Source: Paramagnetospirillum caucaseum (lineage in GTDB: Bacteria > Pseudomonadota > Alphaproteobacteria > Rhodospirillales > Magnetospirillaceae). From it: DNA of 64,000 nt. The notes beneath the pieces are model-generated. The model was not told the origin of the DNA, did not search any database, and saw only the letters and a program-made list of their open reading frames with translations. The translations under genes and the position numbers were made by a program. Below are positions 53,160 through 56,965 of the stretch, one piece after another. Every line of letters starts with the position of its first letter. Position 1 is the stretch's first letter. The stretch lies in the NCBI RefSeq assembly GCF_000342045.1, contig NZ_AONQ01000008.1, forward strand, positions 1 to 64,000. Reading direction: 5' to 3'.

Positions 53160-54917
53160 TCAACCCTCCGGCCGGACCACGCACAGATGGCCGGCGGCCT
53201 GCTTGGCCGCCTTCTTGTGGGCGGCCAGCAGGCGCGACACTTCGTCGGAGGAGCCGGCGGCCCGGCCCGGGGCCAGGTGCACGGCGACGCAGCTCACCGT
53301 CATCAGGGGAAAGCGCGCCGTATGGCCCAGGCGGTCCTGGCCGACCATATGGCCCAGGCGCCGCGTCTCGTCGTCGTAGAAGCTTTCCACGTCGCGGGCG
53401 AAATCGGCGATCAGCCGGCGGCAGGTGTCCTCGGCGTTCTCCGCCGCCGCTCCCCGGAAGCCGGCGAAGAAATCGTCGCCGCCGATATGCCCGGCGAAGC
53501 CGCCCGCCGCCGTCATGGCCTTGGCCAGCAGGTCGCCGAACAGCAGGATGGCGCGGTCGCCGAGGCGGAATCCGTACTTGTCGTTGAACGGCTTGAAATT
53601 GTCGAAATCGAAATAGGCCAGCAGATAGCTGCCGTCCCTGTCCTCCATGGCCTCGCAGACCCAGGACAGGATGACGGCGTTGCCGGGCAGCCGGGTCAGC
53701 GGGTTCTGGTCGCGCGCCGTGGCCAGATTCTTGTCGTTGATGACGCGCAGCAGGGAATCCGCCGACAGGAAGCCCACATAGCGCATGTCGTTGACGATCA
53801 GGATGCCTTCCGACCGCTCCACCGCCGAATAGGCTTCCAGGATCTGCTCGGCCCTGGCGCCCATGTCGGCCATCGGGCAGCGGACGATGAAATCCTTGAG
53901 CGAGCGGCCGTAGCTCTTGTTGGCGATCAGTTCCTTGCCGAAGGGGGAATAGGTGTAGTCCTTCAGTTCCTGGTCCCGCACGATCCCCACCGGCGCGCCC
54001 GATCCGTCCACCACCGGGAAGAAGGTTGCCGACTTGTCGGTGCGGAAGCGTTCGAACACCCGCTCCATGGGGGTGTCCAGCCCCAGCGGCTCGGGCCGCG
54101 CGATCTGGTCGGCGATGATGCGCTGGTCCGAGGCGCCGGCCCGGCGGTCCAGGCGGGCCAGCCGTTCGATCTCGGGGTAATGGGGCCGCAGCCCGGCCCA
54201 CTCGGTGGTCGGGCGGCTCACCAGCCAGCCCTGGACCATGTCGCAGCCGATCTCCTTGCAGACGCGGAATTCCCGCTCGGTCTCCACCCCTTCGGCCACC
54301 ACGATGGCGCCCAGCAGGTGGGCGATGGTGACGATATGGGCCAGGAACACCTTCTTCTTGGAATCGGCGGCGATGTCGGCCACGAAAAAGCGGTCGATCT
54401 TCAGGTAGTCGGGTTCCGAGTAGTACAGCAGCTGCAGCCCGGAAAAGCCGGTGCCGAAATCGTCGATGGCCAGCCGGAAGCCCTGGCGCTTGAAATGGCG
54501 GAAGGTGGCGACGGCGTCCAGGCCGGGCTCCAGCGGGTGGCGCTCGGAAATCTCTAACACCACCGAGGATTCGGGCAGGCCGTGGCGCTCCAGGATGGCC
54601 CGCGTCCGCCGCGCCGGGTCGCCCTCGAGCCCCAGGACACGGTTGTCGATGTTGAGGAACAGCTTGGCCCGGGGGTGGTGGGGCAGGGTGGCGAAGGCGG
54701 CCACCGCCTTTTCGCGCAGGGCCAGCTCCACCTCGGCCAGATGGCCGCCGGCATGGCAGCGATCGAAGAAGTCCTGGATGGAGGCGTAGCCCGCCGCCTC
54801 GGTGCCCCGCAGCAGCGCCTCGTAGCCGTGGCAGGCGCCGGAATGGATGCCGACCACCGGCTGGAGGGCGATGGTCAGGCGGTCGAGGATATTGGGGCCC
54901 AGGGTGTGGGGCGGCAT
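53160..54917 (-). CDS. EAL - CBS - degenerate GGDEF c-di-GMP protein
   Basis: The 585-aa protein starts with an EAL domain (about 10-250) whose key residues are all present: E33 (YEALLRG), N89, E122, D152/D153, K173, E209 and E212, so phosphodiesterase activity is expected. Residues about 265-395 form a CBS pair that may sense nucleotides. The C-terminal domain is GGDEF-like but reads GGDDF (479-483) and is probably non-catalytic or GTP-binding only. GGAGCGATCGGA precedes the ATG. It stands where trpF would be expected upstream of trpB. Confidence 0.93.
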   Translation of the reverse strand: MPPHTLGPNILDRLTIALQPVVGIHSGACHGYEALLRGTEAAGYASIQDFFDRCHAGGHLAEVELALREKAVAAFATLPHHPRAKLFLNIDNRVLGLEGDPARRTRAILERHGLPESSVVLEISERHPLEPGLDAVATFRHFKRQGFRLAIDDFGTGFSGLQLLYYSEPDYLKIDRFFVADIAADSKKKVFLAHIVTIAHLLGAIVVAEGVETEREFRVCKEIGCDMVQGWLVSRPTTEWAGLRPHYPEIERLARLDRRAGASDQRIIADQIARPEPLGLDTPMERVFERFRTDKSATFFPVVDGSGAPVGIVRDQELKDYTYSPFGKELIANKSYGRSLKDFIVRCPMADMGARAEQILEAYSAVERSEGILIVNDMRYVGFLSADSLLRVINDKNLATARDQNPLTRLPGNAVILSWVCEAMEDRDGSYLLAYFDFDNFKPFNDKYGFRLGDRAILLFGDLLAKAMTAAGGFAGHIGGDDFFAGFRGAAAENAEDTCRRLIADFARDVESFYDDETRRLGHMVGQDRLGHTARFPLMTVSCVAVHLAPGRAAGSSDEVSRLLAAHKKAAKQAAGHLCVVRPEG

Positions 54918-55108
54918 TCCGATCGCTCCGGCCGGTCATCCCGGTACGGATTCATCCGCCGAAGCCGGGGCGGGGTCAACGCCCGGATGGGGGGCGGAAG
55001 GCAAATTCACGCGCCTGTCACACGCCCGGATTTCATCGCTGCCATAAACCAGATTTAAACGAAAGACATACGAAGTTACACGAAGCATGTTGAATCGTTA
55101 TTACTCGA

Positions 55109-55128
55109 TTGATATTAATTTGTATCAA
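55109..55128 (+). promoter_or_regulatory. dyad upstream of the aerotaxis pair
   Basis: TTGATA-N8-TATCAA is an inverted repeat in an AT-rich stretch (about 55030-55150), 40 bp upstream of the PAS-protein ATG. It differs from an FNR box (N4), so the binding protein is unknown; it could also be chance in AT-rich DNA. Confidence 0.35.
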
Positions 55129-55167: not shown

Positions 55168-55692
55168 ATGAGCAGCAAGACCATTCAACCCTCGGGTAGG
55201 GAGCGGGCCTTCGCCGAGGATGAGATCATCGTCAGCAAGACCGACATCAAGGGGCGCCTCACCTATGTGAACGACGTGTTCATGTCGGTGTCGGGCTTCA
55301 CCGAGCCCGAGCTGATCGGCCAGCCGCACAGCCTGATCCGCCATCCCGACATGCCACGCTGCGTCTTCAAGCTCCTGTGGGACACCATCGCGTCCGGCAA
55401 GGAGCTGTTCGCCTATGTGGTGAATCTGGCCAAGAACGGCGATCATTACTGGGTTCTCGCCCACGTCACCCCGGATTTCGGCCCCGACGGCCAGATCGTC
55501 GGCTATCACTCCAACCGCCGCGTGCCGAGCCGCGCGGCGCTGGCCAAGGTTGTGCCCCTGTATCAGAGCCTGCTGAAGATCGAGGCCGCGAGCCCCGACC
55601 GCAAGCAGGGGATGGAGACGGCGTTCACCGCCCTCGTCGACCAGTTGAAGCGCGAAGGAAAGCCCTATGCAGAATTTGTCCTCGGTCTCTAA
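55168..55692 (+). CDS. Aer-type PAS sensor protein, separate from its transducer
   Basis: The 174-aa protein is almost only a PAS domain (about 15-125) of the Aer FAD-binding type: LIRHPDMPRCVFKLLW carries the RHPDMP motif and the Trp, and KNGDHYWVLAHV matches Aer. In E. coli Aer, PAS, anchor and signalling domain form one chain; here they are separate. There is no membrane segment. A short helical C-terminus (about 125-174) may contact the partner. Its 3' end overlaps the MCP start by 26 bases, implying coupling. Oxygen or redox sensing is inferred. Confidence 0.9.
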   Translation: MSSKTIQPSGRERAFAEDEIIVSKTDIKGRLTYVNDVFMSVSGFTEPELIGQPHSLIRHPDMPRCVFKLLWDTIASGKELFAYVVNLAKNGDHYWVLAHVTPDFGPDGQIVGYHSNRRVPSRAALAKVVPLYQSLLKIEAASPDRKQGMETAFTALVDQLKREGKPYAEFVLGL

Positions 55693-56965
55693 GGCCCTGC
55701 GCGCGTGCCAGATCACCTTCGGGCTGGCTCTCGCCCTGGCCGTCGTCGCCTTGCTGCTGCAGAACTGGGTGGCGGCGGGTTTCGCCCTGGCCCTGGCGGT
55801 GCCGGCCTGGCTGCCCATCGGCTACCTCAACCGCGCCAACGCCAGCATCGAGAAGGCGGTGAAGGTCTGCCAGGGGGCCGCCGCCGGCAATCTCGGCGAG
55901 CGCATCATGGATATCCGGGGGGGCGGCAACCTGGCCGTCATGCTGCGTTCCATCAACCGGCTGCTCGACCTGACCGAGGCCTATTGCCGCGAGTCCCAGG
56001 CGGCCATGGAGCACGCCAACCAGCGCCAGTACTTCCGCAAGATCATCCCCACCGGCCTGCGCGGTGATTTCGCCCGCTATGCCGGCGTGATCAATTCCTC
56101 CCTCGACCTGATGAAGCAGCGCGACGCCGAGGCGCTGGACTTCGCCGAGCAGAAGGTGCGCGTCCTGGTGCAGGAGGTGTCGTCGGCCTCGACCCAGCTG
56201 CGGCAGAGTTCGGACCGGCTGATGAACAACGCCACCCAGACCGTGCACCAGGCCATGACCTCGGCCGCCGCCGCCGAGGAGGCCTCGGTCAACGTCCAGT
56301 CGGTGGCCGGCGCCGCCGAGGAGCTGGCCGCCTCGTTCGGCGAGATCAACATGCAGACCACGCGGGCCACCGCCATCTCGTCCGAGGCCATGGTCACCGC
56401 CCAGCGCACCGACGAGACCGTGCAGGACCTCGGCCATGCCGCCGAGAAGATCGGCTCGGTGCTGTCGCTGATCCAGGACATCGCGTCCCAGACCAACCTG
56501 CTGGCCCTCAACGCCACCATCGAGGCGGCCCGCGCCGGCGAGGCCGGAAAAGGGTTCGCGGTCGTCGCCAACGAGGTCAAGACCCTGGCCAACCAGACGG
56601 CGCGGGCCACCGAGGAGATCTCGGCCCATGTCAGCCAGATCCAGCTGGCCTCCCAGGGCGCCGCCGTGGCCATCCGCGAGATCGCCCAGATCGTCGGCAC
56701 CATCCAGGAGACCTCCACCGCCGTGGCCGGCGCGGTGGAGGAGCAGAACGCGGTGACCATGGAGATCTCGCGCAATGTCCAGGAGGCCGCCACCGGCACC
56801 GCCTCGGTGTCGGAAGCGGTGGCCTATGTGAAGGACACCGCCGAGACCACCGACCAGGAGGCCCGCGACATCTCCGCCGCCGCCGCCAGCCTGGCCCACC
56901 GCGCCGACGACCTGGAGGCCCAGATCAACGGCTTCATCGCCAAGATCAAGGGCCAGGCCGCCTGA
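55667..56965 (+). CDS. methyl-accepting chemotaxis protein (transducer of a split aerotaxis receptor)
   Basis: The 432-aa protein has an N-terminal hydrophobic hairpin (about 13-52), no periplasmic ligand domain, and a signalling domain whose tip contains IASQTNLLALNATIEAARAGE and GFAVVANEVKTLA. It would dimerise, bind CheA/CheW and control the flagellar switch. It begins inside the end of the PAS gene. The lack of its own sensor domain and the coupling suggest that the two polypeptides make up an Aer-like receptor. A long perfect hairpin follows. Confidence 0.93.
   Translation: MQNLSSVSKALRACQITFGLALALAVVALLLQNWVAAGFALALAVPAWLPIGYLNRANASIEKAVKVCQGAAAGNLGERIMDIRGGGNLAVMLRSINRLLDLTEAYCRESQAAMEHANQRQYFRKIIPTGLRGDFARYAGVINSSLDLMKQRDAEALDFAEQKVRVLVQEVSSASTQLRQSSDRLMNNATQTVHQAMTSAAAAEEASVNVQSVAGAAEELAASFGEINMQTTRATAISSEAMVTAQRTDETVQDLGHAAEKIGSVLSLIQDIASQTNLLALNATIEAARAGEAGKGFAVVANEVKTLANQTARATEEISAHVSQIQLASQGAAVAIREIAQIVGTIQETSTAVAGAVEEQNAVTMEISRNVQEAATGTASVSEAVAYVKDTAETTDQEARDISAAAASLAHRADDLEAQINGFIAKIKGQAA

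Follow-up and report, generated by a model that had tools for sequence, protein, structure and literature searches.

The window examined here, a stretch of 64,000 nucleotides from Paramagnetospirillum caucaseum, carries two overlapping genes that very probably encode a bipartite energy or aerotaxis receptor of the CetB/CetA type. Two features of the bipartite class are present, namely a small stand-alone PAS protein and an MCP with a membrane hairpin and no sensor (as judged by Pfam, AF2 models and hydropathy). An earlier, sequence-only reading of the locus had proposed that an Aer-type receptor is divided here over two chains, and this holds, with an Aer-like FAD pocket and a hairpin MCP encoded on separate, conserved ORFs. 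The novelty attached to the two-chain design does not hold, since CetB/CetA bipartite receptors are already established by experiment (PMC2628428, PMC12442639), one of them in a close relative, M. gryphiswaldense, and are treated as an established class in a 2026 review (PMC13401364). The window pair is a further member of that family, representing a new paralogue lineage and otherwise ordinary.

The cetB-type gene occupies positions 55168–55692 of the + strand and encodes a stand-alone, FAD-type PAS sensor of 174 aa plus stop. PAS is the sole Pfam domain matched (PAS_3, 7e-11), and among solved structures it is best matched by the E. coli Aer PAS domain (8DIK; phmmer E 2e-31), in which the RHPDMP (residues 58–63 of the window protein) and KNGDHYWV (residues 89–96) strings also occur. 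Pfam searches of this protein for a signalling domain found none, and its hydropathy profile contains no strongly hydrophobic segment. ORFs, motif positions and Pfam thus bear out the original description of a PAS protein with RHPDMP, a characteristic Trp (W71) and KNGDHYWV, and with no signalling domain. The AF2 model, built on a 36-sequence alignment (pLDDT 92.5), superposes on 8DIK at 0.8 Å (TM 0.94 over the target, 44% identity). In the model, three additional helices (122–141, 145–163 and 167–173) follow the PAS core, and the end of the last is encoded within the gene overlap.

In CetB2 of M. gryphiswaldense, FAD is contacted by eight residues: His54, Asn55, Arg58, Phe67, Trp71, Asn86, Val100 and Arg117 (PMC12442639). 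The window protein keeps seven of them with identical numbering (H54, R58, F67, W71, N86, V100 and R117), while position 55 has, instead of Asn, a Ser, the usual residue there among 104 homologues. Six of the eight contacts (H54, R58, F67, W71, N86 and R117) are invariant in 104/104 CetB homologues. Conservation of the FAD residues is seen in both the alignment and the 8DIK superposition. Since the CetB2 contact residues are kept and six are invariant among homologues, FAD binding by the window CetB is very likely.

The adjoining cetA-type gene (55667–56965, + strand) encodes a membrane-hairpin MCP of 432 aa plus stop, in which only MCPsignal exceeds the Pfam cut-off (E 5e-29). Hydropathy, the AF2 model and Pfam reveal no sensor domain. 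Together with the coordinates, they agree with the initial account of the next gene as an MCP, overlapping by 26 bases, with a membrane hairpin and no sensor. The two-helix hairpin spans residues 1–56 (55667–55834, +) with a very short loop at ~31–33; by hydropathy and AF2, the hydrophobic N-terminus consists of helices 6–30 and 34–72 with a short turn between them, the hairpin continuing into a HAMP-like helix in the model. A HAMP-like region, assigned from the AF2 helix pattern, follows at residues 57–160 (55835–56146, +). The MCP signalling hairpin, supported by Pfam, hydropathy and AF2, comprises residues 161–432 (56147–56962, +) and bears the tip motif LLALNATIEAARAGEAGKGF. In the AF2 model, a helix at 88–118 precedes a long signalling hairpin (134–290 and 295–428) that turns at 291–294. 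The model has a pLDDT of 88, and its long-range geometry is unreliable because pTM is 0.42.

The pattern of helices (34–72, 88–118 and 134 onwards) and connectors (73–87 and 119–133) in this model suggests that residues 56–150 form two consecutive HAMP-like units. Pfam calls HAMP in 3/28 and HAMP_2 in 1/28 CetA homologues, and neither in the window CetA; NCBIfam aer2_vibrio matches residues 66–423 of the latter. At the HAMP-like region, a profile search matches residues 231–352 of 9trk, a weak, family-level match, and a search of solved structures for a HAMP with the window CetA sequence alone gave no match. The C-terminal arm measures ~19 heptads when counted on the AF2 model, which would fit a 38-heptad receptor, the class predicted for CetA2 (PMC12442639).

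The two genes overlap by 26 bases (55667–55692, +), from the MCP ATG at 55667 to the last base of the PAS stop codon at 55692, stop included, with both ORFs on the + strand. This segment codes for the end of CetB and for the first residues of CetA (MQNLSSVSK). The CetA start conforms to the consensus MxNLSSxSKAL, and in much of the family CetA opens with M.NLSS.SK. When named genomes were searched, 542 relatives emerged, of which the best 80 were fetched; these, with same-family loci, made up the survey of PAS–MCP pairs that had been put forward as a check. A CetA-like MCP lies directly 3′ of the PAS gene in 151/158 records, which are not all distinct and represent 114 distinct pairs; of the remaining seven, four are near contig ends and three are without a CetA-like MCP. 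In 59/114 distinct pairs a possible start codon in the CetA frame precedes the end of the CetB stop by 26 bases, and in 30/114 by 23 bases. As the sensor-then-MCP arrangement is found again in 114 distinct pairs, it is not due to chance.

The same survey bears on whether the locus is a one-piece Aer gene broken by sequencing error or a recent frameshift. The frames do overlap and jointly hold the Aer domains, and a frameshift joining them had been named as the result that would overturn the two-gene description. Such a break is so improbable as to be negligible, since the identical split recurs across the distinct pairs in many genera, and CetA has its own conserved start motif. Phylogeny of PAS domains leads to the same verdict. 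An unrooted tree was built from 46 stand-alone PAS proteins, E. coli Aer and the PAS domains of 12 same-family one-piece Aer-like receptors. A single branch parts the stand-alone from the Aer-fused domains (SH-aLRT 100, quick method), and Aer-fused forms are present separately in the window genome. Given this division, the CetB/CetA split is old and not a local breakage of an Aer gene; the tree, being unrooted, gives no direction of split or fusion. Assignment to the one-piece Aer class, with PAS and signalling on one polypeptide, is likewise rejected, as two separate ORFs are present and conserved as such.

The bipartite receptor encoded in the window is one of several in its genome. There are 23 matches to the PAS protein, including five CetB-type loci and three close one-piece Aer-like proteins, as well as 47 MCP matches. 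It had been suggested that the pair may be a main oxygen sensor. Such a role is unlikely, as the genome has three Aer-like receptors and four other CetBA-type loci, one of which (contig C67) is the likely orthologue of CetBA2, the dominant pair in experiments.

Correspondence with studied loci was traced through two genomes, G021 and G038, which we take to be M. gryphiswaldense MSR-1 and M. magneticum AMB-1, respectively. The G021 CetB at 3,581,413 carries the signature of CetB2, its Trp being residue 71 when counted from its Met. Its CetA partner shares 43% identity with the CetA that lies amid the G038 magnetochrome genes, as against 42.1% reported for CetA2 versus Amb0994 (PMC12442639). On the basis of this signature and this match, CetBA2 would correspond to C67 (73% CetB and 71% CetA identity with the presumed CetBA2 of G021) and Amb0994 to contig C112, with the window pair separate from both. 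Identity of the window pair with CetBA2 is rejected, given only 64% (CetB) and 40% (CetA) identity to the presumed proteins and the likely orthologue on C67. By these comparisons the window pair is placed in a separate paralogue lineage of the CetBA family. Its orthologue in G038 lies at ~4.416 Mb (89% CetB and 92% CetA identity), and orthologues occur in 7/16 other genomes of the genus, with identities of 76–91% for CetB and 82–92% for CetA. At the G038 locus (L173, G038:C1:4412500-4419000), a gpsA homologue near the pair is matched in three successive segments, which suggests broken frames or errors in the sequence.

Nine magnetochrome-domain matches in the window genome indicate magnetosome genes, in keeping with the magnetotactic type of organism presumed at the outset. 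Two of the seven orthologue-bearing genomes, G044 (79% complete) and G046, have no magnetochrome match, so the window pair is not tied to magnetosomes. These observations also touch on the idea that the pair is a magnetic-field module, as proposed for Amb0995/Amb0994 of AMB-1. The Amb pair is of one family with the window pair and likewise consists of a PAS protein and a hairpin MCP; unlike the window pair, it sits among magnetosome genes (PMC12442639; PMC6056624). Identity to the Amb-type pair is 52% for the window CetA (to the Amb0994-type protein) and 61% for the window CetB, and magnetosome genes are present in the organism. Against this, the likely Amb0994 orthologue of the window genome is an MCP on C112 (98.9% identity) and not at the window locus, the window pair has its own orthologue in G038 as well as in the two genomes without magnetochrome matches, and no bipartite MCP with a magnetic role was found in M. 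gryphiswaldense (PMC12442639). A magnetic function of this kind is thus most improbable, and orthology with Amb0994/0995 is rejected, the window lineage being separate in the trees. On C112 itself (L183, G000:C112:7146-7674), the Amb0994/0995-type CetB gene is split over two frames in mid-PAS, after RHPEMPR, next to an intact CetA, and this could be either genuine decay or an error of the draft assembly. C116 holds the Amb0994/0995-type pair in a second, intact copy.

Returning to the CetB/CetA-type receptor of the window, evidence on the fidelity of its partners comes from their inheritance. CetB and CetA distances over 104 pairs are correlated (Mantel r 0.82, permutation p 0.0005), partly reflecting shared species history, and CetB and CetA trees of 37 pairs recover largely the same clades. 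Gene adjacency and co-inheritance are therefore seen in the layout survey, distances and trees alike. Because distances correlate and clades match, CetB and CetA appear to be inherited as a unit, which argues against a freely shared sensor. An exchange of sensors between paralogues was suspected, since the window CetA is 58–66% but the window CetB just 57–61% identical to those of the L035/L095/L133/L146/L148 group; it was rejected, as the CetB tree likewise joins the window clade to this group (support 85).

It had further been proposed that a detachable sensor could be shared among MCPs. In a reading of this kind, one CetB would act on several MCPs, or the window CetA would receive many inputs from several CetBs. 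Several closely related CetBs in one genome and an orphan CetB5 in M. gryphiswaldense (PMC12442639) are compatible with such sharing. Nearly every CetB, nonetheless, adjoins its own downstream CetA with agreeing trees, and in M. gryphiswaldense loss of cetB2 or cetA2 is not compensated by other paralogues, other CetBs do not replace CetB2, and the polar position of CetB2 is lost without CetA2 (PMC12442639). A shared sensor is accordingly an improbable reading. A long shot is the related notion that, within one magnetospirillum cell, the several CetB paralogues and the CetA receptors swap partners, so that output would be set by the proportions in which interchangeable redox sensors of different potential are present. 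Given the conserved 23/26-base overlap and the agreement of the trees, partner fidelity and a fixed stoichiometry lend themselves to testing.

A few loci depart from the usual pairing. At L170 (G021:C1:1979500-1984500), the gene downstream of CetB appears to encode a classical MCP with a long periplasmic region in place of a hairpin CetA, and the L170 CetB may be the orphan CetB5 (PMC12442639). At L172 (G021:C1:2747000-2752000), a CetB with an N-terminus nearly identical to that of the L168 CetB has a diverged C-terminus and no MCP, possibly through partial duplication or an assembly artefact. CetB-like genes also occur at L031, L051, L061, L062, L074, L079, L081 and L096, on contigs labelled as Planctomycetota or members thereof, most with a downstream MCP, reflecting transfer or mis-binning.

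Upstream of cetB, three ACGAA repeats spaced 10–11 bp apart (55059–55084, +) constitute the sole match to this pattern in the genome. Repeats 1 and 2 are conserved in several orthologues, and the element is a possible regulator site. An inverted repeat, TTGATA-N8-TATCAA, lies at 55109–55128 just upstream of cetB, and its left arm alone is well conserved in orthologues. Adjoining cetB is a divergent gene on the minus strand (53160–54917) for an EAL/GGDEF-like (c-di-GMP) protein, a neighbour kept at several orthologous loci and not found beside the pair in G038.

As a bipartite receptor, the window pair would operate through a cytoplasmic CetB that binds FAD and tracks the redox state of the respiratory chain, and a CetA that lacks its own sensor and is anchored in the membrane by its two-helix hairpin. 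CetB would dock onto CetA, probably at the HAMP-like region, and a change in flavin redox state would alter the CetA signalling hairpin, and with it the activity of CheA and the reversals of swimming. Translational coupling probably links production of the two proteins from the overlapping genes and would favour a ratio of one CetB to each CetA. FAD binding, docking, coupling and the direction of response are inferred for the window pair, which is expected to work as CetBA2 does. Dosage tuning, a possibility that had also been raised for the pair, fits the finding that CetBA2 dosage alters oxygen preference (PMC12442639). Redox tuning, response sign or ligand could differ, since the pair is a diverged paralogue with a CetA just 40% identical to the presumed CetA2. 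The pair may also contribute little alone, given that most single MCP deletions in M. gryphiswaldense, including those of other bipartite pairs, only slightly changed swim halos (PMC12442639).

Among known systems, E. coli Aer (8DIK; full length 31cj) shares with the window pair its PAS fold, FAD pocket, hairpin anchor and MCP signalling hairpin; it differs in being a single chain, and stand-alone CetB PAS domains sit on a separate branch. CetB/CetA of Campylobacter jejuni is alike, by description, in that the Aer domains are split over a PAS protein and a hairpin MCP. There, by the locus numbers, cetB follows cetA. This bipartite receptor was described in 2008; cetB and cetA are co-transcribed, and upstream of cetA is Cj1191c, a paralogue of CetB (PMC2628428). 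In the window the sensor gene comes first. The most informative comparison is with CetB2/CetA2 of M. gryphiswaldense (2025), in which CetB2 binds FAD (midpoint potential −274 mV vs Ag/AgCl) and interacts with CetA2, and which drives an oxygen-repellent response and sets the upper oxygen threshold (PMC12442639). Like it, the window pair has a hairpin MCP and a stand-alone FAD-PAS protein with the FAD residues numbered alike, and its genes overlap in the same order; it differs as a separate paralogue. The loci corresponding to CetBA2 and Amb0994/0995 are thereby sorted out, and the window pair brings a further paralogue lineage to the bipartite receptors by which magnetotactic bacteria set their oxygen preference.
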